NCBI RefSeq assembly: GCF_903645295.1
Contig: NZ_CAHJXM010000003.1
Coordinates: 620,001-684,000, forward strand
DNA length: 64,000 nt
Direction of reading: 5' to 3'
Source of the DNA: Bacillus sp. Marseille-Q1617
Lineage (GTDB): Bacteria; Bacillota; Bacilli; Bacillales; Bacillaceae_B
Positions 5,446 through 22,931 of the stretch are shown here, piece after piece (positions within the stretch are counted from its first letter, which is position 1; every line of letters begins with the position of its first letter). Below the pieces are notes generated by a model. It was not told the DNA's origin and did not search any database. It saw only the letters and a list, made by a program, of their open reading frames with translations. The translations under genes were made by a program, and so were the position numbers.

Positions 5446-5478
5446 GAGCCTGGACGACATCGTTCAGGCTCATTTTTT
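5446..5478 (+). terminator. Terminator after dapF
   Basis: A 12-base-pair stem (GAGCCTGGACGA with TCGTTCAGGCTC, one G-T pair) is followed by six T. It overlaps the last codons of the convergent ligD. The reverse orientation lacks a T tail, so it serves dapF. Confidence 0.92.
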
Positions 5479-7311
5479 GGAGTTTCCTTTGAGAAATTCG
5501 ATTACTTCATGAAAAGGCTGATTCTCCTTTACCCGTTCAAATTGACTAAATGGACATCCCAGTTTTGAAAAACGGCTCAAAACTTCTTCCATCGTAAACT
5601 GCTCCGGGGTTAATTCTTCGTTTACTTCATTCCACCACAGCGGGGCAGCAACAAGAGCTTTGTCGTTCCCTCTTAAAGAATAGGGTGCAATAATCGTTTT
5701 CCCTTCAGCGTGCTGGATGTAATCTACATACAGACGCCCCTTTCTATTTTTTTTCATCCGTTCAATCGTGAAATCATCGGGATAATTGGATACAAGGTAA
5801 TGAGCGATGAATTCAGTGAATATACCTGTGTCCTTCCATGAGTATCCGGCTGGAATAGGGATATAGATCTGGAGCCCTTTGTTTCCTGATGTTTTCACGA
5901 AGCTCTTTAATTTCAAACCTTCGAACAACTCCTTCATGATGAGGGCTGCCTTGACCGCCAAAGGAAATTGTTCCCGGCTTGGGGGATCCAAATCAAATAC
6001 GATTTCATTGACGTCACGCTGTTCCGTTTTCTGAAAAGGTATGTGAAATTCCAATGCGAGTTGATTTCCAAGCCACATCAGACTCTCCAGTTCATTGCAA
6101 ACAATGTATTCGATCCCGTCTTGTACATGTGTTTCAATATAATCGGGCGCATAATCGGGAACGTTCTTCTGATAAAAGGACTCTCCAAACATCCCATGGG
6201 GATATCGAATACAGGTCAATGGACGATTGTGGAGAAAAGGCAGCATGGAAACTGATATCCTGCGAAGGTACCTGATATAATCCAACTTTGTAAGTCGTGG
6301 TTCTTCCCATAGAGGTTTGTCAGGATGTGTGATTTCCACGCTTTGAGGTATACTGGCTTCATTTTGGAGGAATTGTTCCAGCGTACATTCTTCAGGACGG
6401 GAAGCGAACTTGAACTCATGAAAATGCGGTTCCCTTAATTGCTCTTCATACCAATTTAAGTATAATACCTCCACACAAATTGCCGGTTCAATATAATAAT
6501 GACTGCCTTCTTTCCGGGAATGATTTTCTTTTATGATTTCTTTTAGTGTTCTTTTTTCACTTGGAGAAATGCCAAAATGAAATAAACCGATTTTTTTAAT
6601 CTTTTCTTCATCAAAAACGCCGATATGAAAATAATCGTTATTTACATCGACTGACGTGACAAAACACAGGCATTTTTTCCAATTCTTTATTTTAAGCCAC
6701 GAGGAACTCCGTTTACCTTCTTCCCACTTACTTTCTGAAAGCTTGGCGACTACACCCTCACCTTCTTCACTTGTCACACCACTCCATACCTTATTCCAAT
6801 CGGTAAAGAAAGGAATCATTTGAATGACGGCGGGGTTGGCCGGGTCAGGTTTCAATGGTAGATCAAGGGTGGAGCATATATCCTCTAATTCCTTTTTGCG
6901 CTTAGTATATGATTGGCTGCTCCAGAGCTCATTCCCGCTTTGTATAAGGTCGAAAGCCAAAAACTTTACAGGTCTTGCAGATGATGTTTCTTTGATTTTT
7001 TGTTTGTTCTTCATCCTTCCCCTGATTTGAAGTTCGAAAAATTCACTGCTGTATGATGAACGCAGAAGGACAATTTCACCATCCAGCACAAGTGGGAGGG
7101 AAGGTGGAGAAGCGGCCTCCAATAATTCCGCTGCATATTCTTTAATCTCAGGGAAATGAGTTAAGAGATCTTTGTTGTTCCTGCTGGTCAATGATATTCC
7201 TTCAATGGTATCAATCTTTAAAATTCCCCTGAACCCATCATATTTAACTTCATAATTCCATTTTCCTTGTTTGGGGATTTCCTCTGTAAGAGTGGGCAGC
7301 ATCGGTTTCAT
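5470..7311 (-). CDS. ligD: Bifunctional DNA ligase/polymerase LigD
   Basis: ATP-dependent ligase of bacterial non-homologous end joining. From ATG 7311 the protein has 613 residues, matching the two-domain Bacillus form without a nuclease domain. The N-terminal ligase domain carries the adenylated Lys23 in EVKYDGFRG, then LDGEIV and EGVVAKL. The C-terminal primase-polymerase domain (from about residue 320) has THPDKPLW and the catalytic aspartates in FDLDPP. Upstream in-frame GTG and ATG codons (7320, 7317) are possible, but AAGGTG lies six bases before ATG 7311. It is divergent from ku with 140 bases between, and the two act together at double-strand breaks. In B. subtilis the equivalent pair protects spores; no sigma-G promoter is clear here. 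Confidence 0.95.
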   Translation of the reverse strand: MKPMLPTLTEEIPKQGKWNYEVKYDGFRGILKIDTIEGISLTSRNNKDLLTHFPEIKEYAAELLEAASPPSLPLVLDGEIVLLRSSYSSEFFELQIRGRMKNKQKIKETSSARPVKFLAFDLIQSGNELWSSQSYTKRKKELEDICSTLDLPLKPDPANPAVIQMIPFFTDWNKVWSGVTSEEGEGVVAKLSESKWEEGKRSSSWLKIKNWKKCLCFVTSVDVNNDYFHIGVFDEEKIKKIGLFHFGISPSEKRTLKEIIKENHSRKEGSHYYIEPAICVEVLYLNWYEEQLREPHFHEFKFASRPEECTLEQFLQNEASIPQSVEITHPDKPLWEEPRLTKLDYIRYLRRISVSMLPFLHNRPLTCIRYPHGMFGESFYQKNVPDYAPDYIETHVQDGIEYIVCNELESLMWLGNQLALEFHIPFQKTEQRDVNEIVFDLDPPSREQFPLAVKAALIMKELFEGLKLKSFVKTSGNKGLQIYIPIPAGYSWKDTGIFTEFIAHYLVSNYPDDFTIERMKKNRKGRLYVDYIQHAEGKTIIAPYSLRGNDKALVAAPLWWNEVNEELTPEQFTMEEVLSRFSKLGCPFSQFERVKENQPFHEVIEFLKGNSKK

Positions 7312-7450
7312 ATACATCACCTTGACTATTTTTGTATAGTGTAGCCTCGATCACCTGCGATTATTTCCAATTGTTTATGTGAATGAAGCTTAATAAGTAA
7401 TTAAAAGATAAAGTTAACAGGATTTAGTATACAAAAAGGAGGGTATTGTA

Positions 7451-8311
7451 ATGCATACCATATGGAAAGGTTCCATAAGTTTCGGATTGGTAAATATTCC
7501 AATCAAGCTGCACTCAGCCACCGAAGATCGTGATATTAAGCTTCGATCTCTTCATAAGGAATGTCACACGCCGATCAAATATGAAAAAGTCTGCCCGGTC
7601 TGTGATAAAGAAATTGATCACAATGACATCGTTAAGGGTTATGAGGTAACGAAAGGGAAATTTGTGGTATTGGAAGAAGATGAGCTGGCTCAAATTAAAG
7701 AAGCAAATGCAGAAAAAACGGTCGAAATTTTAGATTTTATTAAAATCGACGAAATCGATCCCATTTTCTATGACAGAAGCTACTTTGTTTCACCGAATGA
7801 CGGAGGGAAAAAAGCTTATTCACTTCTGCGAAAAGCCTTAGTGTCTTCTGGTAAAGTAGGCATCGCAAAAATTACGATGAGATCAAAAGAACAATTATCA
7901 GTCGTAAGGGTTTATGAGAACACGTTAGTGATGGAGACGATTCATTACCCTGACGAAGTAAGGACTTCTAAAGATGTACCAAATGTACCTGAGAGCGATG
8001 AAATCTCAGAAAAAGAACTGGAGACGGCTACAATGCTCATTGAACAACTGACATCAGAATTTCAGCCGGAGAATTATCATGATGAATACCGTGAGCGGCT
8101 GAGTCAGTTGATTGAATCCAAGCAAACAGGTGAAAAGATCGTTACTGCAAAAGAAAAGGATCCGAAAGAAAATGTAACGGACTTAATGGCAGCCCTTCAA
8201 GCTTCAATTGATTCGACCAAGCCAGAAAAAGCAGAAAAGCCGGATAAGAAAAAAACCACAAAAAAGAAAGCGCCAAAAAAGAAGGCAACAACAAAGAAAA
8301 AAGCGCAATAA
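7451..8311 (+). CDS. ku: Ku protein for non-homologous end joining
   Basis: Bacterial Ku homodimers bind DNA double-strand ends and recruit LigD. The 286-residue protein begins MHTIWKGSISFGLVNIPIKL, the standard Ku signature. The core spans about residues 1-230, with CHTPIKYEKVCPVCDKEI around 37-55, which resembles a zinc-binding knuckle. The tail from about residue 255 is a lysine-rich repeat (KKKTTKKKAPKKKATTKKK), as known for Ku C-termini that aid DNA threading. AAAGGAGGG lies at a good distance from ATG 7451. It is divergent from ligD. The PAP2 gene follows after 27 bases on the same strand. Confidence 0.96.
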   Translation: MHTIWKGSISFGLVNIPIKLHSATEDRDIKLRSLHKECHTPIKYEKVCPVCDKEIDHNDIVKGYEVTKGKFVVLEEDELAQIKEANAEKTVEILDFIKIDEIDPIFYDRSYFVSPNDGGKKAYSLLRKALVSSGKVGIAKITMRSKEQLSVVRVYENTLVMETIHYPDEVRTSKDVPNVPESDEISEKELETATMLIEQLTSEFQPENYHDEYRERLSQLIESKQTGEKIVTAKEKDPKENVTDLMAALQASIDSTKPEKAEKPDKKKTTKKKAPKKKATTKKKAQ

Positions 8312-8338
8312 TCCAAATGAAAGGGAAGGAGATCCACA

Positions 8339-9007
8339 TTGGAGGAAAGACATTTAAAAAAGGCTGTATTCTTCATTATTTCTTTAATCTGTCTAGGGTT
8401 CTTTACATGGGGCTTTGTTTCCATTCTGGAAGAGTGGAAAGAGAATGAGATTGCGGGATTTGATAATGGAGTTTTCAATGTGGTTCACGGGTTCATTTCT
8501 CCCAAACTGACTACATTGATGACTTCCATTACGTTTATGGGTGGAGTGAAGTGGCTGAGTATCAGTACAATTGGACTCGTCATTGTATTGGTATTCATGA
8601 AAAAGTATCCTCTCGCTTTATTTTTGACATTGACAGTCAGCCTGGGAGCGGGTTTTAATTGGCTGTTAAAATGGATATTCAAACGGGACAGGCCTGATAT
8701 TGAAGCCCTCATCGAGCAGGGGGGGTACAGCTTTCCAAGCGGTCACTCGATGGGTTCCTTCATTTTTTACGGCGCTGTGGCGTTTATGTTATATCGTGCA
8801 CTGGACAGGGCTGTATTTAAGTGGCTGAGCGTACTTGCCTTATCAGTGCTGATTCTTTTTATCGGAATCAGCAGGGTATATTTAGGGGTTCATTATCCGA
8901 GTGATATCGTTGGGGGATTTTCAGCCGGAGGAGGCTGGCTGACTCTCTGCATAGCCGTTTATATCTATTTCTACAAACGAAGTGATTGGAAATATGTTGA
9001 TGAATGA
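8339..9007 (+). CDS. PAP2 superfamily phosphatase, membrane-bound
   Basis: A 222-residue membrane phosphatase with the three-part PAP2 signature: KWIFKRDRP (motif 1), SFPSGHS (motif 2 with its histidine) and SRVYLGVHYPSDIVGG (motif 3 with the nucleophilic histidine). Five or six hydrophobic segments are apparent, with the active site facing the outside. Likely substrates are undecaprenyl diphosphate, phosphatidylglycerophosphate or other lipid phosphates, as in YodM/PgpB relatives; the sequence does not separate these. The start is TTG 8339, because AAGGAG lies seven bases upstream and no in-frame ATG is near. It may be co-transcribed with ku. Confidence 0.9.
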   Translation: MEERHLKKAVFFIISLICLGFFTWGFVSILEEWKENEIAGFDNGVFNVVHGFISPKLTTLMTSITFMGGVKWLSISTIGLVIVLVFMKKYPLALFLTLTVSLGAGFNWLLKWIFKRDRPDIEALIEQGGYSFPSGHSMGSFIFYGAVAFMLYRALDRAVFKWLSVLALSVLILFIGISRVYLGVHYPSDIVGGFSAGGGWLTLCIAVYIYFYKRSDWKYVDE

Positions 9008-11541: not shown

Positions 11542-11592
11542 TTGACAAAACCAGAGAGAGGAATTACAATGATATTGAAAATCATTCTCAAT
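11542..11592 (+). promoter_or_regulatory. Sigma-A promoter overlapped by a Fur box
   Basis: TTGACA (11542-11547), a 17-base spacer, and TACAAT (11565-11570) form a near-consensus promoter. Directly downstream, 11574-11592 reads ATTGAAAATCATTCTCAAT, a 19-base near-palindrome. Its core TGAAAATCATTCTCA matches the Fur consensus TGATAATNATTATCA at all but two defined positions. Fur bound here would cover the transcript start, so the downstream RNA should be made when iron is scarce. Confidence 0.82.
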
Positions 11593-11710
11593 GAAAACAC
11601 AAGAGTTTCCCCCTCTTTCTTTTTATATTCGAGAATGGTTCATGATTACCCCCCTTTAATAAATCGTAAAGACAATCCCGGAGTGCAAAGCTCCGGGATT
11701 TTCTTTTTTT
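11577..11710 (+). ncRNA. Candidate Fur-regulated C-rich small RNA (FsrA-like)
   Basis: A transcript of about 134 bases is bounded by the Fur-box promoter and a strong terminator. It contains two pyrimidine-rich C-runs, CCCCC at 11609-11613 and CCCCCC at 11649-11654, suited to pairing with Shine-Dalgarno sequences. CATTCTC (11583-11589) can pair with GAGAATG (11631-11637), which places the first C-run in a large loop; the second is single-stranded before the terminator. This is the arrangement known for FsrA, the iron-sparing small RNA of B. subtilis. A 65-codon frame starting ATG at 11569 has a possible AGAGAGG site, but both lie upstream of the predicted transcript start. The assignment rests on promoter, operator and layout, not sequence alignment. 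Confidence 0.72.
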
Positions 11711-11711
11711 C
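11674..11711 (+). terminator. Terminator of the candidate small RNA
   Basis: AATCCCGGAG pairs perfectly with CTCCGGGATT around a seven-base loop, followed by TTCTTTTTTT. Confidence 0.93.
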
Positions 11712-11731: not shown

Positions 11732-11760
11732 TTGCAATTCACTGTCACCTGTCGTAAATT
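11732..11760 (+). promoter_or_regulatory. Probable sigma-A promoter of yhdT-panF
   Basis: TTGCAA (11732-11737), a 17-base spacer and TAAATT (11755-11760), 45 bases before the yhdT start. Confidence 0.5.
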
Positions 11761-11804: not shown

Positions 11805-12083
11805 GTGAATGAAAAAGAAGATAAACGGTTTCATATCGCTCATCGCGAAGCTTTAATCGGAATTGGGCTTGTTGTGATAAATTTTTTATGGTGGTACGGC
11901 TTTGCGTTCGGACTTGGCGGGGGTCCTGTTACAGAATATGACTGGATCCTGGGGATGCCAGCGTGGTTCTTTTATAGCTGTATTGCAGGTTTCCTGCTGA
12001 TGGTTATGTTAGTGGTATTGGTTGTAAGATATATGCTTACAGATATCCCTTTTGATGGAGATGAGGGGGATTATCATGAATAG
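11805..12083 (+). CDS. yhdT: YhdT family small membrane protein, PanF partner
   Basis: A 92-residue protein with two membrane segments (about 15-35 and 48-72). The phrases NFLWWYGFAFGLG and EYDWILGMPAWFFYSC are characteristic of the YhdT/DUF997 family. YhdT is typically encoded next to the sodium/pantothenate symporter, as it is here, but its molecular role is unknown. The start is GTG 11805, with AAAGGAG ten bases upstream. Its stop codon lies inside the panF start region (eight-base overlap), which shows translational coupling. Confidence 0.88.
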   Translation: MNEKEDKRFHIAHREALIGIGLVVINFLWWYGFAFGLGGGPVTEYDWILGMPAWFFYSCIAGFLLMVMLVVLVVRYMLTDIPFDGDEGDYHE

Positions 12084-13506
12084 TATGGCATTGATTCCCA
12101 TGATTGTATTTTTGATCATCATTTTTATTGTTGGGGTCTATTCCTCAAGGAAGATCGGCAAAGCAGATTCTTTCGTACAGGATTACTTCCTGGGCAGCAG
12201 GCAGCTTGGCGGTTTCATTCTGGCTATGACCATGATTGCTACATATGGAAGTGCAAGCAGTTTCATCGGCGGTCCCGGTGCAGCGTATTCATATGGTTTA
12301 TCATGGGTGCTTCTTGCAATGTCTCAAGTCGTAACCGGCTACTTCGTCCTTCTTGTACTCGGTAAAAAGTTTGCGATCATGTCACGTAAATACAATGCTG
12401 TGACGTTGGTCGATTACTTGCAGGGCCGATATCGAAATCATTACATAACGATTCTTTCCGCTCTAAGCATCATGATCTTCCTTTTTTCCGCGATGATTGC
12501 GCAGTGGGTCGGGGGAGCTAGATTAATAGAATCGCTAACAGGTCTGTCCTATAAGAGCGCATTATTTCTATTTGCCGTTTCAGTGCTTGTTTATGTCATC
12601 ATCGGAGGATTCAGGGCTGTGGCCGTCACCGATGCGATACAAGGGGTCGTAATGCTTGGAGGTACGATCATCTTACTGATTGCAACGATCATAGCAGGAG
12701 GCGGCATGGAAAATATCATGATGGATCTAAAAGCGGAAAATCCCAATCTCTTAAGCCCGAATGGTGCAAATGGAGAGTTGAGTGCCAGGTATATTTCATC
12801 CTTTTGGATCCTCGTAGGGGTTGGGGTTATCGGTCTTCCTCAAGTTGCTGTCAGGGCCATGAGTTATAAAAATTCACGCTCCATGCACAGGGCCCTGATC
12901 ATCGGTACGATTGTAGTCGGTTCGATTATGCTCGGAATGCATTTAATCGGGGTTCTTGCACGTGCGGTGATGCCCGGAGTGGAGGTTGCCGATAAAGTCA
13001 TGCCGCTGCTTGCCTTGGAAGTACTCCCTCCGTGGCTTGCAGGCATCGTACTTGCCGCCCCGATGGCTGCCATCATGTCTACAGTCGATTCCCTTTTGTT
13101 GATTGTTTCTTCTGCCATCGTCAAAGATCTTTATATGAATTTCATAAATAAAGATGCAGGGGAAAAAAAAGTGAAAAAAATGAGCTTCCTTGTGACATCC
13201 ATCACCGGGATTGCTGTATTCCTTATGGCTTTAAGTCCACCAGAGTTAATCATCTGGCTGAATCTATTTTCCTTTGGAGGCTTGGAAGCGGTGTTTATCT
13301 GGCCGATTGTGCTCGGTCTATACTGGAAGACTGGAAATGCCTATGGAGCGCTGGCCTCCATGCTGTCGGGATTGATTTCATATATCTTATTTCACAGCTT
13401 CCTCCCAAACTACCTGGATATGCACACCGTCGTATTCCCGATACTCATATCCTTTTTCATGTATATAACAGTTTCGTTGATGACAAAACAAAAATTATTA
13501 AATTAG
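12076..13506 (+). CDS. panF: Sodium/pantothenate symporter
   Basis: A sodium:solute symporter (SSS family) of 476 residues with about 12-13 membrane segments. It takes up pantothenate for coenzyme A synthesis. PanF-type landmarks include DYFLGSRQLGGFILAMT, YGSASSFIGGPGAAY and GLPQVAVRAMSYKNSRSMHRA. The start ATG 12076 is chosen because GAGGGGG is four bases upstream; an in-frame ATG eight codons earlier lies within yhdT and lacks a ribosome site. It overlaps yhdT by eight bases, and the YhdT neighbour supports pantothenate over other SSS substrates. A terminator follows. Confidence 0.92.
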   Translation: MNSMALIPMIVFLIIIFIVGVYSSRKIGKADSFVQDYFLGSRQLGGFILAMTMIATYGSASSFIGGPGAAYSYGLSWVLLAMSQVVTGYFVLLVLGKKFAIMSRKYNAVTLVDYLQGRYRNHYITILSALSIMIFLFSAMIAQWVGGARLIESLTGLSYKSALFLFAVSVLVYVIIGGFRAVAVTDAIQGVVMLGGTIILLIATIIAGGGMENIMMDLKAENPNLLSPNGANGELSARYISSFWILVGVGVIGLPQVAVRAMSYKNSRSMHRALIIGTIVVGSIMLGMHLIGVLARAVMPGVEVADKVMPLLALEVLPPWLAGIVLAAPMAAIMSTVDSLLLIVSSAIVKDLYMNFINKDAGEKKVKKMSFLVTSITGIAVFLMALSPPELIIWLNLFSFGGLEAVFIWPIVLGLYWKTGNAYGALASMLSGLISYILFHSFLPNYLDMHTVVFPILISFFMYITVSLMTKQKLLN

Positions 13507-14539: not shown

Positions 14540-14826
14540 CAATAAATAAATGAGCGAACGGCTTTGACGAAGAGGAGTACCCTTTGCAGACACTTAAGAG
14601 AGCTAGTGGCTGGTGAGAACTAGTGTGAATGCTTTGGGGAATGGACTTCCGAGCCTCCAAACCGAAATCCTTTGGAGAGTAGGCTTTGGCGAATGTCTTA
14701 TCGTTATAAAAGACACGCATTCAAGCTATGGGCTTCGATGCGGAAGAGTGGACTGTTCAGGCAGTCAACAAAGGTGGCACCACGGGTATCTCGTCCTTTT
14801 TATAAGGAATGAGATGCCCTTTTTTA
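14540..14826 (+). promoter_or_regulatory. T-box leader 1, tryptophan-specific
   Basis: A complete T-box. Stem I contains GGTGAGAACTAG and a specifier loop reading GAA-TGG-ACTTCCGAG, with the Trp codon TGG at 14642-14644. The T-box motif AAGGTGGCACCACGG lies at 14771-14785. Its TGGC would pair with the GCCA end of tRNA-Trp, whose discriminator base is G. A terminator, GGGTATCTCGTCCTT against AAGGAATGAGATGCCC, with a T run ends at 14826. Uncharged tRNA-Trp should favour the antiterminator and allow transcription to continue into the second leader. Confidence 0.94.
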
Positions 14827-14859
14827 TTTGTTTCTAAAATACCCATATAGTAAATCGTC

Positions 14860-15136
14860 GAATAAGAGTAGTAAGCTTAAGTGAAGCTTTACAGAGAGTT
14901 AAGGACCGGTGAGACCTTGACAGGATAGCTTAAGTCGAATGGACTTATGAGAGATGACTTGAATGATGAAGTAGGGTCATACGGTTTTCCGCCGTTATAC
15001 GGATAGAATATCGGGTTTTAACCCCTGTATTCGAAATGAAGAGGGAGTATATTTATTACTCCAATCTGAGGTGGCACCGCGGTCAGCATCGTCCTCTATG
15101 AGCACATCACATCTGTGCTTATAGGGGACTTTTTTA
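14860..15136 (+). promoter_or_regulatory. T-box leader 2, tryptophan-specific, in tandem
   Basis: A second, independent T-box follows the first terminator. The specifier loop reads GAA-TGG-ACTTATGAG, with TGG at 14940-14942. The conserved T-box sequence TGAGGTGGCACCGCGG is at 15067-15082, again with TGGC for the tRNA-Trp end. The terminator GTCCTCTATGAGCACA against TGTGCTTATAGGGGAC with a T run ends just before the trpE ribosome site. Two serial T-boxes make trp expression conditional on two binding events. This arrangement is known for trp operons in some Bacillus species; B. subtilis uses TRAP instead. Confidence 0.95.
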
Positions 15137-15156
15137 TTTGATTGGAGGAATGGAAA

Positions 15157-16542
15157 GTGAAACAGCAGGAAGCAGTCAATTATGCAGTGAAAGAATTAAA
15201 TGGTGATTTATATACACCCATTTCGCTTTTTCAATCTTTGAAGGGGTCGAAAAAGTTTTTGCTCGAAAGTTCTTTGAAGCATGAGCAGTCAGGAAGATAT
15301 TCATTCGTTGGATGCGATCCTTTTTTAGAATGCAAAGCACGCGGCGATGATGTGCAAATCATTAATCACCATACAGGTGAAAAAGAAAATCGCAAAGGGC
15401 GTCCCATAGAGATTATCCAACAACTTATACCCAGAGTGGATCAACAGGAACTTGATTTGCCATTTGCAGGGGGAGGCATCGGGTATCTCGGTTATGATTC
15501 GATCCGCGAGTATGAAGATATTGGATCTGTACCTCATGATGAAATGAATATGCCTGATATACATTTAATGTTTTACGAAAAAGTGATTGTGTTCGATCAT
15601 GCTGAACAGAAAATGTATCTCGTAGTTCTCGGCTCTGAAAAAGGCAAGCTGGAAGAAAAGCTGAGGGAAGTGGAGAATCAGATTACAAACGTCTACCTTG
15701 ATGTAAAAAAGGTGCAGCTGAAAGGCTTGCAGTTTCAATCTCAACTATCTGAACAGGAATTTATCGAAAAAGTAAAAGCGGCCAAAGAATATATCAGGAA
15801 CGGGGATATTTTCCAGGTCGTACTTTCTCAAAGAATGCAGGCAGATTTTACTGAAGATTCGTTCAGCTTTTACAGAAGGCTGCGTCAATCCAACCCGTCT
15901 CCTTACATGTTCTTCATAGATTTCGAGGATTATGTGGTGCTCGGGGCTTCTCCTGAAAGTCTGGTGAAAGTTCAAGGCCGGAAGATTACAACCAATCCAA
16001 TAGCCGGTACGAGAAAAAGAGGAACGAATGAGGAGGAAGACCATCTTTTAGAAATTGAACTGTCTTCTGATGAAAAGGAAGTAGCTGAGCACAGGATGCT
16101 GGTCGATTTAGGAAGAAACGATTTAGGAAAGGTGTGCGAACCGGGTTCGATCAAATTATCAAAATATATGCTGGTAGAGCGGTATAAGTATGTCATGCAT
16201 TTGGTTTCAGAAGTGAAAGGGGTCCTGAAAGAAGAAGTGACCCCGCTTGAAGCACTGGTAAGCTGCTTACCGGCCGGAACAGTAAGCGGTGCTCCCAAGA
16301 TTCGGGCCATGCAGATCATCAATGAGCTTGAGGTAAAGAAAAGAGGGGTTTATTCCGGAGCCATCGGTTATATAGGGGTGAATGGCAACCTGGATTTTGC
16401 TTTGGCCATCAGGACACTGATATTGAAGGATCATACCGCTTATGTTCAGGCTGGTGCCGGTATTGTTTATGATTCTGACCCTAAAAGTGAATATGAAGAA
16501 ACACTCAATAAAGCAAAATCCCTATTGGAGGTGGGAGAATGA
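15157..16542 (+). CDS. trpE: Anthranilate synthase component I
   Basis: Converts chorismate and ammonia (or glutamine with TrpG) to anthranilate, the first step of tryptophan synthesis. The 461-residue protein has the chorismate-binding domain in its second half, with NPSPYMFFIDF, PIAGTRKRG, DLGRNDLGKV and LPAGTVSGAPKIRAMQII. The N-terminal regulatory region has LLESS near residue 37, the motif used for tryptophan feedback inhibition. GTG 15157 is chosen because GGAGG lies nine bases upstream; an in-frame TTG at 15142 overlaps that site. It is the first gene of the operon and overlaps trpG by four bases (ATGA). Confidence 0.96.
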   Translation: MKQQEAVNYAVKELNGDLYTPISLFQSLKGSKKFLLESSLKHEQSGRYSFVGCDPFLECKARGDDVQIINHHTGEKENRKGRPIEIIQQLIPRVDQQELDLPFAGGGIGYLGYDSIREYEDIGSVPHDEMNMPDIHLMFYEKVIVFDHAEQKMYLVVLGSEKGKLEEKLREVENQITNVYLDVKKVQLKGLQFQSQLSEQEFIEKVKAAKEYIRNGDIFQVVLSQRMQADFTEDSFSFYRRLRQSNPSPYMFFIDFEDYVVLGASPESLVKVQGRKITTNPIAGTRKRGTNEEEDHLLEIELSSDEKEVAEHRMLVDLGRNDLGKVCEPGSIKLSKYMLVERYKYVMHLVSEVKGVLKEEVTPLEALVSCLPAGTVSGAPKIRAMQIINELEVKKRGVYSGAIGYIGVNGNLDFALAIRTLILKDHTAYVQAGAGIVYDSDPKSEYEETLNKAKSLLEVGE

Positions 16543-17150
16543 TCCTGCTTATCGACAATTATGATTCCTTCACATATAACCTGTATCAGTATGTAAAGGA
16601 ACTTGGTGAGGAAGTCCAGATTAAAAGAAATGATCAAATCACGATCGAAGAAATTCAGGAACTAAAACCATCCGGAATCATCCTGTCTCCTGGACCCGGT
16701 ACACCTGAGAATGCGGGTATCTGCATCGATATTATACAGAATCTTCACACTAGCGTGCCGATTCTGGGTGTGTGCCTGGGCCATCAGGCAGTCGGAGCGG
16801 CCTTTGGTGCAAACATCGTGATTGCAGAACGTATCATGCATGGTAAAACATCGTTGATCAGCCATAACGGTCATGGACTATTTCAATATTTAAGTCAGCC
16901 ACTCGGCGTGATGAGGTATCATTCACTGGTCATTGAAAAAGGTTCCCTTCCGCCTCAGTTAGAAATAACCGCTGTGTCGATGGATGACAAAGAGATCATG
17001 GCCATTAAGCATATGCGTTACCCCGTTTTCGGGGTTCAATTTCACCCGGAATCGATAGGGACCGAGACTGGCAGGAAAATGCTGAAAAATTTCATAGATG
17101 AGATGAGAAAGGGGAATAACCGTGAAACAGTTTCTGCAAAAGCTATCTAA
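16539..17150 (+). CDS. trpG: Anthranilate synthase component II, glutamine amidotransferase
   Basis: Supplies ammonia from glutamine to TrpE. It is a 203-residue class I amidotransferase with catalytic Cys79 in LGVCLGHQAVG and His169/Glu171 in VQFHPES. The oxyanion loop LSPGPGTPENAG is present. The same type of protein can serve as PabA in folate synthesis; position between trpE and trpD argues for TrpG, possibly dual use. B. subtilis has no trpG in its trp operon, so this operon is more complete. It starts inside the trpE stop and overlaps trpD by 29 bases. Confidence 0.94.
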   Translation: MILLIDNYDSFTYNLYQYVKELGEEVQIKRNDQITIEEIQELKPSGIILSPGPGTPENAGICIDIIQNLHTSVPILGVCLGHQAVGAAFGANIVIAERIMHGKTSLISHNGHGLFQYLSQPLGVMRYHSLVIEKGSLPPQLEITAVSMDDKEIMAIKHMRYPVFGVQFHPESIGTETGRKMLKNFIDEMRKGNNRETVSAKAI

Positions 17151-18147
17151 CGGACATTCATTAGAGCGAGATGAGATGAGAAGAGCTGCACATGAATTAT
17201 TCAGTGAAGAAACGACTGACAGTCAAATCGCGTGTTTCTTGACACTGTTGAAAATGAAAGGTGAATCGGTGGATGAAATTACAGGCCTGGTCCAGGTGCT
17301 CAGAGAGAAGGCCTTGCCGGTAAGTAACAAAATGTGCGGAGTATTGGATAACTGCGGAACCGGTGGAGACGGTTCAAACAGTTTCAATATCAGTACAACG
17401 AGTGCCTTTGTACTGGCAGGTGCGGGAGTGAAAGTTGCTAAGCACGGAAACAGGAGCATTTCAAGTAGAACGGGCAGTGCCGATGTTCTGGAGCACCTGG
17501 GAGTATCACTGGATTTCAATGCAAATGAAATCAACACCCTTTTGGCAGAATGTAATATCGCATTTCTTTACGCCCCCCATATCCATGCCGGGCTCAAAAG
17601 GATCATGAAAGTCAGAAAGGAGATAAAAATTCCTACGATCTTTAATCTGATCGGTCCTTTAACAAATCCAGTGGAGCTGGAAACTCAGCTGATCGGGGTG
17701 TACAGAAGAGATAAGCTTGAAACGATGGCAGAGGTATTGAATCAACTAGGAAGAAAAAGGGCAATTGTTTTAAACGGTGCGGATCACATGGATGAGGCAT
17801 CTCTTGCAGGAGAAAATCATCTGGTGCTGCTCGATAAAGGCAGAATCACTCCTATTACGGTCAAAGGTGAAGATGTCGGTCTGCCCCATTATCCCAATTC
17901 AATGATTAAAGGGGGAGAAGCAGCTGATAACGCGCTAATTCTTCAAGCGGTCTTAGAAGGAAAAGAAGGGCCTTACCTTGACACCGTTTTATTCAATGCA
18001 GGAATCGCTTTATACGCACATGGAAGTGTATCCACTATAGCAGAAGGAATCAAAGAAGCACGGAAAAGCATAACCTCAGGTAAAGCGAAAGAAATTCTTC
18101 ACTCGCTGATCACGTTCAGTGGGCAAAAGAGAAAGCAGGTGATTTAA
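17122..18147 (+). CDS. trpD: Anthranilate phosphoribosyltransferase
   Basis: Joins anthranilate to phosphoribosyl pyrophosphate. The 341-residue protein has the glycine-rich PRPP loop DNCGTGGDGSNSFNIST (about residues 74-90), KHGNRSISSRTGSADVLE and the later RRDKLETMAEVL region. It starts at GTG 17122, preceded by AAAGGGG, and overlaps the end of trpG by 29 bases. This is longer than the overlaps elsewhere in the operon but still consistent with coupling. The stop is immediately followed by the trpC start. Confidence 0.96.
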   Translation: MKQFLQKLSNGHSLERDEMRRAAHELFSEETTDSQIACFLTLLKMKGESVDEITGLVQVLREKALPVSNKMCGVLDNCGTGGDGSNSFNISTTSAFVLAGAGVKVAKHGNRSISSRTGSADVLEHLGVSLDFNANEINTLLAECNIAFLYAPHIHAGLKRIMKVRKEIKIPTIFNLIGPLTNPVELETQLIGVYRRDKLETMAEVLNQLGRKRAIVLNGADHMDEASLAGENHLVLLDKGRITPITVKGEDVGLPHYPNSMIKGGEAADNALILQAVLEGKEGPYLDTVLFNAGIALYAHGSVSTIAEGIKEARKSITSGKAKEILHSLITFSGQKRKQVI

Positions 18148-18936
18148 GTGGCTGACATTCTTCAAGAAATCATAGATAAGAAAATGAGTGAAGTGAAAGA
18201 ACTGAAAGAACGGGGTTTCAAAACATATAATCAATCATTTAAGCAATCACGCGGTTTATATGACTCTCTAATGAAAGCAGACAGACTACAGGTGATAGCA
18301 GAGATAAAACGGGCTTCGCCATCAAAGGGTGATATCAAAGTGGAGGTGGAACCCGTCGCTCAGGCGAAGGATTATGAACAAGCAGGCGCAGCCGCCATTT
18401 CAGTATTAACGGACACCCCATTCTTCAAAGGAACGATGGATGATCTGGCAGAGGTCAGGAAGCAGGTCAGTCTCCCGATCCTGTGCAAAGATTTCATCAT
18501 AGATCCCATACAAATCGACAGGGCTCATGATGCTGGTGCCAACATCATCCTTCTGATCGTGGCCGCCCTTGATAAAGCAACTCTTCACTCTTTGTTCGAC
18601 TATGCAGGAAATCTGGGGCTTGAAGTATTAGTAGAAGTCCACAATGAAGAAGAAATGAGAATTGCTTTGGATATGGGTGCGAGCATCATCGGAATCAATA
18701 ATCGCAATTTAAAAACGTTTGAAGTCAGTTTGGATGTAACGGAGAACCTGGCAGCCATGATTAAAAATAAAAAAACCGTCCTCATCAGTGAAAGCGGGAT
18801 TAAAAATAAATCTGATTGTGAAAGAGCGGCAAAAGCCGGTGCTCACGGAGTATTGGTCGGAGAGACCTTGATGAGAAGTGAAGACAGTGGAAAGACCCTC
18901 TCCTCCCTTCAAGTGTCAAGGAGCGGAGTGTTATGA
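18148..18936 (+). CDS. trpC: Indole-3-glycerol phosphate synthase
   Basis: Ring closure and decarboxylation of the carboxyphenylamino-deoxyribulose phosphate to indole-3-glycerol phosphate. It is a 262-residue TIM barrel with IAEIKRASPSKGDI, the catalytic lysine in LCKDFIIDPIQI, LVEVHNEEE, IGINNRNLKTF and ISESGI. The GTG start begins directly after the trpD stop, with AGGTG nearby. It overlaps trpF by four bases, so the two activities are separate proteins here rather than the TrpCF fusion of enterobacteria. Confidence 0.96.
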   Translation: MADILQEIIDKKMSEVKELKERGFKTYNQSFKQSRGLYDSLMKADRLQVIAEIKRASPSKGDIKVEVEPVAQAKDYEQAGAAAISVLTDTPFFKGTMDDLAEVRKQVSLPILCKDFIIDPIQIDRAHDAGANIILLIVAALDKATLHSLFDYAGNLGLEVLVEVHNEEEMRIALDMGASIIGINNRNLKTFEVSLDVTENLAAMIKNKKTVLISESGIKNKSDCERAAKAGAHGVLVGETLMRSEDSGKTLSSLQVSRSGVL

Positions 18937-19571
18937 CAAAAGTAAAAGTGTGTGGAATACAAGATTTGAAAGCGGCTCAATGGGCGGTGGATGCAGGAGC
19001 AGACGCTGTGGGATTCATCTTTGCCGAAAGCAGACGAAGAATTTCAGTGGAAAAGGCGGCTGCCATCTCTAATTCAATTCACGAAGGTATTCTTAAAATC
19101 GGTGTATTCGTGAATGCCTCTAAGGAGGAACTGGAAGACATTGTAGAAAAGGTGAAACTCGACTATGTTCAACTGCATGGAGATGAAAGTCCTGCTTTTT
19201 GCAATAGCCTAAACGTTCCTTATATCAAGGCAGTCGCGGTCACGGAAGAGAGAGATTTAAATATCCTGCCGGAATATAGTGGTGAATTCGTGCTTGTCGA
19301 CAGTGGAAAAGGACCGTACAGGGGAGGCAACGGGACCTCTTTCGACTGGGAATATCTTAAAGACTATCAATCCAGTAATCATAAATTGATACTCGCAGGT
19401 GGCTTGAAGAAGGACAACGTAAGAATGGCAGTCAGCATAGCAAAACCTTATATGGTCGACGTTTCAAGCGGAGTGGAAAGCGGCGGTATCAAAGATAAAG
19501 AAAAGATATTGGATTTCATTAATGAAGTAAGAGCCATAAAAACTGATAGTGAAAGCGGGGAGTTACAATGA
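18933..19571 (+). CDS. trpF: Phosphoribosylanthranilate isomerase
   Basis: Amadori rearrangement of phosphoribosylanthranilate. It is a 212-residue TIM barrel. The catalytic cysteine lies in [11 protein letters not shown], the catalytic aspartate in FVLVDSGKG, and the phosphate-binding region is [10 protein letters not shown] and [14 protein letters not shown]. The start overlaps the trpC stop by four bases, and its own stop overlaps the trpB start by four bases. Confidence 0.96.
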
Positions 19572-20770
19572 TTTATGCACAGCCGAACCAAAAAGGGTTA
19601 TTTGGACAGTTTGGTGGAAAATATGTTCCGGAAACATTAATGAAAGCAGTGAAGGAACTTGAAGCGGCTTATAATGAAGCTTCAAAAGACGACGAATTCC
19701 AGCACAAACTCAGGTACTATCTTAAGGAGTATGTAGGCAGGGAAAATCCTCTTTACTTTGCAGAAAACTTAACGAAAAAAGTCGGCGGGGCAAAATTGTA
19801 TCTGAAAAGGGAAGATCTAAACCATACCGGAGCCCACAAGATCAATAATACAATCGGCCAGGCATTACTTGCCGAACGGATGGGCAAGCGGAAGATAGTA
19901 GCCGAAACAGGGGCGGGTCAACATGGGGTAGCCACTGCTACAGTCTGTGCGCTTTTGAACCTTGAATGTGTCATCTTTATGGGCGAAGAAGATATCAGGA
20001 GGCAGAAATTGAATGTTTTCCGAATGGAACTGCTAGGTGCCAAAGTGGTCAGTGTTACGGCAGGAAGCGCCACATTGAAAGATGCAGTAAACGAAGCCCT
20101 CCGATACTGGGTCGCAAATGTGGAGGATACTCACTATATCATCGGCTCGGTTCTTGGTCCGCATCCGTTCCCTAAAATGGTTCGGGATTTTCAAAGTGTG
20201 ATAGGACATGAAACAAAGAAACAATTTTTTGAAAAAGAAAAATCCCTTCCTCAGGCGATTGTGGCGTGCGTAGGGGGAGGAAGTAACGCAATCGGGATGT
20301 TCCACCCATTCATTGAAGATAAAGATGTTGAATTGTATGGGGTAGAAGCAGCCGGTTCCGGCCTCGATTCAGATAAACATGCGGCAACACTCACGAAAGG
20401 AACTCCGGGGATCCTGCACGGGAGCTTGATGTATCTCCTCCAGGATGACGACGGCCAGATTCAGGAAGCCCATTCCGTCTCTGCCGGCCTCGATTATCCC
20501 GGGGTCGGTCCTGAACACAGCTATTTGAAGGATATTAATAGAGTCCAATATACTTCAATCTCTGACAAAGAAGCATTGGATGCGTTCAAGAAGTTGTCAC
20601 AAACGGAAGGGATCATTCCCGCATTGGAAAGCTCACATGCTGTTGCATATGCGTTGAAACTGGCAAAGGAAATGAAAGCTGACGAATCGGTCGTCATTTG
20701 TCTGTCGGGAAGAGGAGATAAAGACGTGGAACAAGTGAAGGAATTGCTGGGAGGTAATGAGAATGGGTAA
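19568..20770 (+). CDS. trpB: Tryptophan synthase beta subunit
   Basis: Condenses indole with serine in a pyridoxal phosphate reaction. The protein has 400 residues. The cofactor lysine is Lys91 in [11 protein letters not shown], the phosphate loop is [12 protein letters not shown], and [12 protein letters not shown] is the catalytic loop. GGGGAG is placed just before ATG 19568. The start is coupled to the trpF stop, and trpA begins inside the trpB 3' end. Confidence 0.97.
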
Positions 20771-21560
20771 GGTGTTCATGGAACAGGCATTTCAATATGA
20801 ATTGGATAAAGGAAATAAATTGTTCATCCCCTATATCATGGCAGGAGATGGAGGGATCGAGAGTTTTATAGATACATTGAAACAACTAGAGGAAGCCGGG
20901 GCGACGGCCATCGAAGTCGGCATCCCCTTCTCAGATCCTGTCGCTGATGGCCCTACAATCCAGAAAGCAGGAATAAGGGCTCTCGAAAAAGGAGTCAATT
21001 TGCAGCAGGTATTGGATGAGCTGGTCCGGAGAAGAGAAGAAATCGGTGTACCATTAGTGTTCATGACGTACATCAATCCGGTTTTTAAATATGGCATCGA
21101 CCGCTTTTTTACTCGATGTGAAGAAGCTGGAGTGGACGGGCTGATTATCCCGGATCTGCCAGTCGAGCACCTTGATCTGATATCCGCGCCTGCAGAGAAA
21201 CATGGGATAGCGATCATCCAGCTTGCCACCTTGACCAGTTCACGTGAACGGATCAGTGAACTTGCAAACCTGACGGAAGGATTTTTGTATGCCGTGACCA
21301 TAAACGGCACGACAGGGGCGAGAAATGCTGTTAATGAAAAGATCGGCGATCATCTGCAAATACTAAAAGAATATAGTAAAGTCCCTGTCCTTGCCGGCTT
21401 TGGTATTTCCACCCCGGAGCATGTAACGGAAATGACCGAGAATTGTGACGGAGTTGTAGTCGGAAGCCGGATCATCGACCTCCTTCAGGAGAACAGGCTC
21501 AGCGAAATAAAAGAATTAATCGATGCCGTAAAAATTAATTCGCTGCAAAGTAAGAGATAG
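20763..21560 (+). CDS. trpA: Tryptophan synthase alpha subunit
   Basis: Cleaves indole-3-glycerol phosphate to indole, which is channelled to TrpB. It has about 265 residues, with [17 protein letters not shown] containing the catalytic aspartate, DGLIIPDLP, and [10 protein letters not shown] and VVGSRI for phosphate binding. ATG 20763 is preferred because GGGAGG lies eight bases upstream; ATG 20757 would be too close and ATG 20778 is possible. It overlaps trpB by eight bases. It is the last gene of the operon. No simple hairpin terminator follows; the dispersed repeat at 21629 may do that job. Confidence 0.96.
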
Positions 21561-21821: not shown

Positions 21822-22931
21822 ATGAAGAATACCACAAAATTTATTGGTTTAGACGTATCTAAAGAAAAAATTTCAGTTGCCATCGCAGATGTAGGACGTG
21901 AAGCTCCAAGGTACTATGGCATGATTCCTCATACTGCTGAAGCCCTCCGGTCTCTCGTGAAAAAGCTTGGTCAATCTGAAAACCTGTACATGTGTTATGA
22001 AGCTGGACCAACAGGCTATCCACTCTATCGCTTACTGACTTCAATGGGTGTGCATTGTGATATTATTGCGCCATCACTCATTCCTCAAAAGCCTGGGGAG
22101 CGTGTGAAAACAGATAAAAGAGACGCCATCCGACTCGCTCAGCTCTATAGAGCTGGTGAGTTAACAACGATCCATGTGCCTTCAGAAGAAGGTGAAGCAC
22201 TGCGTGATCTGGTTCGCTGCCGTGAAGATGCAAAAGAAGATGAGCTGCGTGCCAGACACCGGCTGACTAAATTCCTGATGCGTCACGAAATCCGGCCACC
22301 CGATGGTGTGAATCGTTGGACAATTAAATACTACAGGTGGCTTGATACACTGAAGTTCGAGTATTCATCTGCGCGTGTTGTATTTCAGGAATACTATCAT
22401 CAACTCAAAGAGCTTCAACAGCGGGTGATTAGACTTGAAGAAGAGATTCGCGAACAGTCCACAAAAAATGTGCACGCACCGATGATCCAGGCTTTTCAAT
22501 CACTACGGGGCATCGCACTGATTACGGCGACCAGCCTTGTCGCAGAAGTAGCGTGTTTCCAACGCTTTCAGACGGCGCCTCAATTTATGGCTTACGCCGG
22601 ATTGATTCCGAGTGAGTACTCAAGTGGTGAACGCAGACACCAGGGGCAAATCACAAAAGCCGGTAACCGACATTTGAGAAAACTGTTAATTGAAGCTGCC
22701 TGGAGTTACCGATATTCACCTGCCGTTAAAGGTGATTTAAAAAAGCGTCAACAAGGAAGTCCGCTTACTGTGAAGGAAATCTCCTGGAAAGCGCAAAACA
22801 GACTCCATAAAAAATATTACCGATTGGTTTCTAAAGGGAAAGAAAAAAATAAAGCCATTACCGCTGTCGCCAGGGAACTAGCTGGGTTTATTTGGGCGAT
22901 TTCGCAAGAAATCAAACCGATTCATCAGTAA
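21822..22931 (+). CDS. IS110-family transposase (DEDD/serine recombinase)
   Basis: A 369-residue transposase. The N-terminal RuvC-like DEDD domain opens with KFIGLDVSKEKISVAIAD, and further acidic residues follow at YEAGPTGYPLYR and TDKRDAIRLAQLYRAGEL. A central helical region joins it to the C-terminal Transposase_20 domain with LRGIALITATSLVAEV, YAGLIPSEYSSGERRHQGQ and ITKAGNRHLRKLL, which contains the catalytic serine region. These enzymes move DNA with a structured guide RNA encoded in the element's non-coding end. AAAGGAG lies about ten bases before the ATG. The gene is full length with no frameshift, so the element may be active. Confidence 0.94.
   Translation: MKNTTKFIGLDVSKEKISVAIADVGREAPRYYGMIPHTAEALRSLVKKLGQSENLYMCYEAGPTGYPLYRLLTSMGVHCDIIAPSLIPQKPGERVKTDKRDAIRLAQLYRAGELTTIHVPSEEGEALRDLVRCREDAKEDELRARHRLTKFLMRHEIRPPDGVNRWTIKYYRWLDTLKFEYSSARVVFQEYYHQLKELQQRVIRLEEEIREQSTKNVHAPMIQAFQSLRGIALITATSLVAEVACFQRFQTAPQFMAYAGLIPSEYSSGERRHQGQITKAGNRHLRKLLIEAAWSYRYSPAVKGDLKKRQQGSPLTVKEISWKAQNRLHKKYYRLVSKGKEKNKAITAVARELAGFIWAISQEIKPIHQ

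Follow-up and report, generated by a model that had tools for sequence, protein, structure and literature searches.

A candidate small RNA gene upstream of yhdT-panF

We analysed a 64,000-nucleotide stretch of Bacillus sp. Marseille-Q1617 (contig NZ_CAHJXM010000003.1 of assembly GCF_903645295.1, positions 620,001 to 684,000 of the forward strand), referred to here as the window. A first-pass annotation made from the sequence alone had placed an iron-responsive, C-rich small RNA, a probable counterpart of FsrA of Bacillus subtilis, at positions 11542-11711, after a ywaF-type gene and before yhdT-panF. Protein families agree with this placement, with a TMEM164 (ywaF-type) gene upstream and DUF997 (yhdT) and SSF (panF) genes downstream. 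The features of the RNA unit and its immediate surroundings are as follows.

11542-11547, plus strand: -35 hexamer TTGACA (promoter scan)
11565-11570, plus strand: -10 hexamer TACAAT (promoter scan)
11570-11590, no strand assigned: predicted Fur-type operator of two overlapping 7-1-7 motifs with a 6-base offset (motif match)
11577-11710, plus strand: predicted small RNA of about 125-135 nucleotides (nt) (promoter and terminator positions, fold z-score of -6.4, conservation)
11580-11589, plus strand: predicted 5′ arm of stem H1, AATCATTCTC, shared with the Fur operator
11601-11617, plus strand: predicted inner hairpin presenting C-run 1 (CRR1, CCCCC at 11609-11613)
11631-11640, plus strand: predicted 3′ arm of stem H1, GAGAATGGTT
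11641-11657, plus strand: C-run 2 region (CRR2), CATGATTACCCCCCTTT, with the C-run at 11649-11654, complementary to ribosome sites of the form AAAGGGGGG-spacer-ATG
11674-11710, plus strand: intrinsic terminator, an 11-pair stem at 11674-11700 followed by a T tract
11732-11760, plus strand: separate promoter-like site of yhdT-panF, TTGCAA-17-TAAATT, 3′ of the RNA terminator and found in 23 of 26 sequences

All the signals proposed earlier were recovered: the TTGACA-17-TACAAT promoter, the Fur-like palindrome overlapping it, the strong terminator and the two exposed C-runs, whose mean predicted unpaired probabilities are 0.8 and 1.0. The promoter has 11 of 12 consensus matches and is the best of eight promoter-like sites between 9500 and 14000. 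The Fur-type motifs span the predicted transcript start and match at 11 of 14 positions (11570-11584) and 12 of 14 positions (11576-11590), the latter being the only site of that quality in the 64 kb; the 7-1-7 pattern used for scoring is what we take to be the Fur consensus. These signals are weak by themselves. The eight promoter-like sites compare with 10.9 in shuffled sequences, which is no excess, and about 0.9 Fur motifs with 12 of 14 matches are expected by chance per 64 kb, so a single one is no proof. The site rises above chance expectation because the promoter and the Fur core are conserved in relatives.

A reading frame of 72 codons from TTG, or 62 codons from ATG, spans the RNA in the window, and the unit might on this account be a Fur-regulated small protein gene. 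As already pointed out in the first annotation, however, the frame starts upstream of the predicted transcript start. It is also not conserved: over 22 sequences the ATG-led frame ranges from 8 to 62 codons, being 8 codons long in nine of them and shorter than 30 in 16, while the RNA core stays constant. A protein is unlikely given this variation, the RNA is likely non-coding as judged from these alignments, and we regard a small protein gene as extremely improbable.

Conservation of the unit in relatives

Relatives were collected as 25 panF loci from a bacterial-genome scan with the neighbouring PanF protein. The record titles name Rossellomorea in 13 cases and Bacillus or Lederbergia in the remainder, and we use "Rossellomorea" as shorthand for the carriers of the RNA. 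The unit is present in 21 of the 25 loci (L001-L019, L024 and L025), including all 13 with Rossellomorea in the title, and the flanks retrieved for L020-L023 did not show it. The same Fur core occurs in all 21 carrier loci. With the window included, the promoter stands at the correct distance in 22 of 22 sequences, and 14 nt of the operator, TGAAAATCATTCTC, are invariant. The RNA unit is thus real and conserved across Rossellomorea, a genus resembling Bacillus.

A search of the order with model R1 gave 43 matches in 42 genomes, 30 with a locus and 13 without. We kept 18 loci, namely 13 with adjoining yhdT/panF (L033-L044 and L059) and five distant forms (L045, L046, L048, L052 and L055). Eleven R1 matches were set aside as unsupported (L049, L050, L051, L053, L054, L056, L057, L058, L060, L061 and L062) and L047 as ambiguous, because its C-run lies within a Fur hairpin that precedes a gene and we saw no terminator. 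By eye, the Fur-box hairpin of L047, with the C-run in its loop (near base 1500), precedes a nitroreductase-like gene by about 110 bases. L048, which has no clear T-run terminator and no match to model R3 (described below), shows by eye a similar Fur-box hairpin with a C-run in the loop (near base 1500), which precedes a ferritin-like gene by about 230 bases. These two hairpins are possibly leader versions of the same element. In L019 and L046 the RNA is found upstream of a fruR-fruK-like pair (by eye), which makes this a second recurring location.

The RNA precedes yhdT by about 95 bases and has the same orientation, which suggests another reading: the unit could act in cis on yhdT-panF as a leader or attenuator, with the Fur-controlled promoter reading into yhdT and the terminator acting conditionally. 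The ribosome site of panF in the window (GAGGGGGATTATCATGAA, 12052-12090) is complementary to C-run 2 at -26.6 kcal/mol, and it is possible from this complementarity that panF is a cis target of the RNA; the pairing is weaker in several relatives. The promoter-like site that yhdT-panF has beyond the RNA terminator argues against a leader of that operon. Moreover, some 5 kb separate the RNA from panF in L019, and the RNA is thus not bound to the panF operon; the five distant forms have neither yhdT nor panF in their 3-kb loci. We therefore consider the leader reading very unlikely.

Predicted fold of the RNA

The window RNA folds at -40 kcal/mol, against -20.5 ± 3.0 in shuffled sequences, and none of 200 shuffles was as good. 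H1 is predicted as a ten-pair stem between AAUCAUUCUC, the portion of the operator that is transcribed, and GAGAAUGGUU. An inner hairpin within H1 (AAGAG/CUCUU in the window, AAAGAG/CUCUUU in most relatives) is predicted to hold C-run 1 in its loop, and CAUGAnnACCCCCCUUU, which contains C-run 2, follows directly 3′ of H1 and is predicted to be single-stranded. In the folding set, consisting of the window and six relatives, the folds have z-scores of -5.9 to -10.5 except in L019 (-1.2). A terminator-type hairpin lies 3′ of the RNA in all folded sequences except L019, where the 3′ end is unclear, and H1 is predicted to be shorter in L018.

When 18 sequences, some near and some distant, were aligned, 97 % of the 264 cells were paired, compared with at most 55 % in slid controls, and five pairs showed two-sided changes, compared with 0.9 in shuffles; as this alignment was fitted to the structure, its pair support should be taken with caution. 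All five pairs are in the inner hairpin and none is in H1. An alignment of 22 sequences made without structure fitting contained no pair with two-sided change.

Comparison with known RNA families

At the Rfam gathering thresholds only two T-boxes were matched in the window. The thresholds of the families relevant here are 80 bits for FsrA (RF02273), 63 bits for tsr25 (RF02578) and 79 bits for RsaE/RoxS (RF01820). Matches of leaders, MicC and miRNA families below cut-off were dropped, their scores resting mostly on the terminator hairpin. RsaE/RoxS reached 15.6 bits in the window, and to our knowledge this RNA has not been described as Fur-controlled. Its likeness to the present RNA consists of C-rich stretches that pair with ribosome sites, according to extracts of PMC12871923.

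FsrA of the Bacillus subtilis group shares with the Rossellomorea RNA the control by Fur, the C-rich composition and the iron-sparing role, the first and the last as predictions for the latter. The predicted targets are similar too, with sdhC and citB listed for FsrA in the cited extract (PMC11257911). However, the covariance-model comparison proposed in the first-pass annotation came out negative: the FsrA model matched the window RNA on the opposite strand only, at 21-22 bits, and gave no match above cut-off in the ten genomes reached via panF loci, six of which carry the RNA. One weak FsrA match in a carrier (L026) was by eye a terminator-like hairpin and was discarded. Among 397 genomes of the order, FsrA exceeds the cut-off in ten, and these do not overlap with the 42 R1-positive genomes; both searches used strict filters and may have missed weak copies. 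FsrA homologues are mentioned in Bacilli, Staphylococci and Listeria in extracts of PMC12871923; our check covered the 397 genomes of the order, and the staphylococcal and Listeria part of that statement lies outside its reach. An FsrA orthologue is thus hardly conceivable. "FsrA counterpart" stands in the loose sense of a similar job, while the model fails and the closest relative that we found is IsrR of Staphylococcus, an RNA that the first-pass annotation had not mentioned.

IsrR, also known as S596 or Tsr25 and represented by RF02578, is described in extracts of PMC9410917 and PMC11257911 as having two Fur boxes, one in its promoter and one immediately past the start site; its stem H1 is said to be conserved and to carry C-run 1 in the loop, with C-runs 2 and 3 around a second stem. 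The Rossellomorea RNA resembles it in the Fur operator at the transcript start, recognised as a motif only. In the predicted fold an operator arm likewise folds into the main stem H1, C-run 1 sits in its loop and C-run 2 follows the stem. Both have a terminator and a nearby PAP2 gene (pgpB in S. aureus), and the predicted targets of the Rossellomorea RNA, acnA and sdhC, are reportedly bound by IsrR (extract of PMC12607789). There are also differences. The Rossellomorea RNA has about 130 nt and IsrR 174; its operator stands only at +1, whereas isrR has a further Fur box in the promoter; it has the inner CRR1 hairpin; and no arlR-like gene was recognised near it. Stem H2 and C-run 3 are absent from the window RNA.

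Cross-detection between the Rossellomorea RNA and IsrR

The published view, in the cited extracts, is one of convergence among iron-sparing RNAs (PMC9410917, PMC13343841), and a 2026 review states that IsrR has no homology to iron-regulated small RNAs of other species, close Bacillales included (PMC13343841). Among the literature matches listed for IsrR, FsrA and Rossellomorea RNAs, seen as extracts, none reported a relative of IsrR beyond the staphylococci; such a report may exist in other papers. It is accordingly conceivable that the present RNA, Fur-controlled and C-rich, has no kinship with IsrR and looks like it solely through a start-site Fur palindrome and C-runs masking Shine-Dalgarno sequences. 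We weighed this against common descent using covariance and sequence models.

Eighteen sequences from Rossellomorea and its order went into model R2. Of 398 genomes searched in the class, R2 matched 16 at E ≤ 0.01, one being G001. Six genomes were matched by both R2 and tsr25 (G634, G627, G650, G489, G721 and G410), at the same place in all six, and five of these six tsr25 matches are above the Rfam cut-off. Such agreement speaks against convergence. Five further R2-positive genomes (G666, G690, G477, G519 and G682) show the same layout beside a PAP2 gene; four matches (L197, L199, L202 and L203) were rejected by eye as spurious. In loci picked by Rfam, R2 matched the RNA in 20 of 20 isrR loci, with 23.6 to 36.0 bits and E-values of 1.9e-6 to 3.5e-3 in 99 kb. 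Six intermediate sequences located beside PAP2 share the CRR1 core AGAGTTCCCCCTCT unchanged, which likewise argues for descent. The third C-run in H2 is absent from the window and, by eye, from the six intermediates, which suggests that C-run 3 was added later in Staphylococcus. In the distant form L045, C-run 2 is followed by GCCC, as in IsrR.

Model R3, a sequence-only model without the Fur box and made from carriers alone, was applied to 31 isrR-type loci (96 kb). Its six matches all fall on the RNA and represent five different places, four being intermediates and one an Rfam-picked isrR (L195, identical to L220). The tsr25 model, in the genome of L003, had the Rossellomorea RNA as its sole match at E ≤ 1 (18.9 bits). 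A tsr25 match in G001 (L028, 27.6 bits) has neither Fur box nor C-run and was taken as chance. Overall tsr25 matched 30 of the 398 genomes, six of which were reached by R2 under strict filters. The E-values of R1-R3 on loci picked by the same models are not independent.

Several of these results weigh against kinship with IsrR, and some directly favour convergence. At many isrR-type loci R2 also matched the opposite strand over Fur boxes, with up to 27.4 bits, so the Fur boxes supply much of its score. Without the Fur box, R3 missed 19 of the 20 Rfam-picked isrR loci, and it hit 8 of the 12 loci set aside above; little weight can thus be given to its E-values where the loci were picked by the models. 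In the window tsr25 scored 17.6 bits, in an end-to-end alignment, and in the other nine genomes it matched other places or nothing; the G001 match, the missing H2 and C-run 3, and the occurrence of distant forms at other loci belong on the same side. Taking these together with the cross-detection, the intermediates and the PAP2 neighbour described below, we regard convergence as unlikely, although it is the strongest of the alternatives considered.

A PAP2 gene near both RNAs

The telling neighbour is not ywaF or yhdT-panF, but the following gene.

8339-9007, plus strand: PAP2 phosphatase gene (PF01569), of a family that also adjoins isrR

In extracts of PMC9410917 and PMC11257911 the isrR locus lies between arlR and pgpB. 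Within 3-kb loci we found PAP2 homologues in 17 of 20 isrR loci and in all six intermediates. In the 13-kb loci, PAP2 is located upstream on the same strand, 0.05-3.0 kb from the RNA, in 17 of 20 Rossellomorea panF loci. It directly adjoins the RNA in L007 and L018, and one or two genes lie between in the others; L059 also has it directly adjoining. Controls of about 3 kb had no PAP2 in 106 other loci, 30 sdhC loci and 10 FsrA loci, which argues against convergence; the 106 remain from 116 after exclusion of ten that were the RNA's own locus (PAP2 in one of the ten). The size-matched control for the 13-kb loci consists of L020-L023 only (0 of 4). In the intermediates L189, L191 and L196 the order is murG-like gene, PAP2, RNA and response regulator, i.e. 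an isrR-type neighbourhood, with an extra gene before the response regulator in L189 and L191. Neighbour families were checked for L196 and the isrR locus L209. PAP2 lies upstream in the direction of the RNA in Rossellomorea and in these three intermediates; in L209 it lies downstream on the other strand.

The gene order has its counter-evidence. No PAP2 was seen in L016 and L017, the locus of L009 was too short, and L019, which is outside the 20, had none. Among the 13 order-level yhdT/panF loci only one has PAP2 within 1.5 kb of the RNA, other genes having moved in between in the rest, and none was found within 1.5 kb in the five distant forms. Family models, with NCBIfam included in the comparison, did not show the PAP2 genes to be orthologous.

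As a separate observation, LigD (minus strand) and Ku genes adjoin PAP2 (window 5470-9007) and form a two-gene end-joining repair set.

Predicted targets

The complement of C-run 2 together with CAU is AAAGGGGGG-spacer-AUG, i.e. a ribosome site. The sdhC and acnA sites described here come from genomes of relatives and not from the window's own genome, which limits what they say about the window RNA. The pattern AAGGGGGGT-N2-6-ATG occurs 30 times in 10 genomes and includes sdhC in all ten, as the sole match in G001 and G166; of the remaining matches, five are the opposite strand of the RNA itself and 15 are scattered. The pattern complementary to C-run 1, AGAGGGGGAA-N3-9-ATG, occurs 72 times in the 10 genomes and includes acnA (identified by position) in all ten, as well as an oppA-like gene in at least five genomes, with 30 of the 72 loci read. 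In a wider set of 13 genomes, the sdhC ribosome site shows complementarity to C-run 2 in 12 of 12, sdhC not being found in G003, and the acnA ribosome site shows complementarity to C-run 1 in 13 of 13. G166 has a further aconitase-type gene (L128), in which the acnA site is missing. The comparison with ribosome sites of iron-sulfur protein genes suggested in the first-pass annotation therefore turned out positive in relatives, for sdhC with C-run 2 and for acnA with C-run 1. An earlier target pattern, AAAGGGGGN{2,6}TCATG, was too general (77 matches in 10 genomes; the 30 loci read were mostly ordinary genes or the opposite strand of the RNA) and was abandoned.

When accessibility is counted, the pairing of sdhC with C-run 2 ranks 0-2 among 90 background starts and that of acnA with C-run 1 ranks 1-11 among 90. 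When only duplex energy is considered, acnA falls within the top 9-13 % of 172 background starts. Both backgrounds come partly from homologous loci and are not independent. With the C-run 2 of the window, the sdhC duplex has -26.5 to -29.7 kcal/mol in 12 carriers and -9.7 to -26.6 kcal/mol in genomes where no relative of the RNA was detected; in two other R1-positive genomes the values are -26.5 and -23.7 kcal/mol.

Three points reduce the weight of these pairings. That of acnA is only moderately better than background, the gap between the two groups at sdhC is small, and in the 27 genomes where no relative was detected, 26 of 28 sdhC loci likewise have at least five Gs at the site. FsrA is present in five of these genomes, and R1 may not have covered four of them (G007-G010). 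Since the G-rich site is found also without the RNA, it may predate it, and it may be an old site used by several iron-sparing RNAs, as its distribution suggests.

The string AAAGGGGGCTTCATG was found in all 10 genomes searched. In the four loci where the gene was read (L079, L081, L090 and L094) a protein of 107-108 amino acids of unknown function (MMKSISMKVNPLYSD...) starts there, near base 1513.

Other features of the window

Directly upstream of the trp operon (15142-21560, order trpEGDCFBA according to Pfam) there are two tandem T-box leaders (14555-15099, 128.8 and 137.5 bits). An IS110-type transposase gene (21822-22931) is located just 3′ of the operon.

Interpretation

The earlier reading as an iron-responsive C-rich RNA gained support from conservation, structure and complementarity to sdhC and acnA, and lost its FsrA identity. 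The best reading of the unit is a C-rich, trans-acting RNA that is very probably controlled by Fur and most likely serves to spare iron. The RNA is not filed as a full IsrR because it scores below the Rfam cut-off and lacks the third C-run. We infer common descent with IsrR from the cross-detection by the models, the intermediate sequences and the PAP2 neighbour, and lean towards regarding the RNA as a shorter relative of IsrR with two C-runs. Taken as a whole, we consider it quite probable that 11542-11710 encodes a Fur-repressed RNA that would cover the ribosome sites of sdhC and acnA with its two C-runs and is related to IsrR by descent.

In the proposed mechanism, Fur bound at the start site would keep the RNA gene off when iron is present, and scarcity of iron would switch on its synthesis. 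The operator bases included in the transcript would then form the 5′ arm of the main stem H1, as in the predicted fold. C-run 2 with CAU, an anti-start-codon, would pair with the Shine-Dalgarno sequence and start codon of sdhC, and C-run 1 with the Shine-Dalgarno sequence of acnA. Translation of the iron-rich enzymes succinate dehydrogenase and aconitase would probably fall when iron runs out.

More tentatively, and with a little less than an even chance in our estimate, the RNA may belong to an old Bacillales family of Fur-operator-hairpin RNAs of which IsrR is one branch, so that IsrR would not have originated in staphylococci. In this family the palindrome read by Fur in the DNA would also be transcribed as the 5′ arm of the main stem, making repressor site and RNA scaffold a single element. 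The two-C-run form would be ancestral, Staphylococcus would have added C-run 3, and FsrA would have replaced the RNA in the Bacillus subtilis group.

A relationship with IsrR, if true, would explain the rigidity of H1 in IsrR, as its 5′ arm must double as the Fur operator. Convergence is commonly illustrated by iron-sparing RNAs; with a Rossellomorea relative and intermediates, at least this part would become a case of descent. The carriers would also provide non-pathogenic hosts for studying IsrR-type control.
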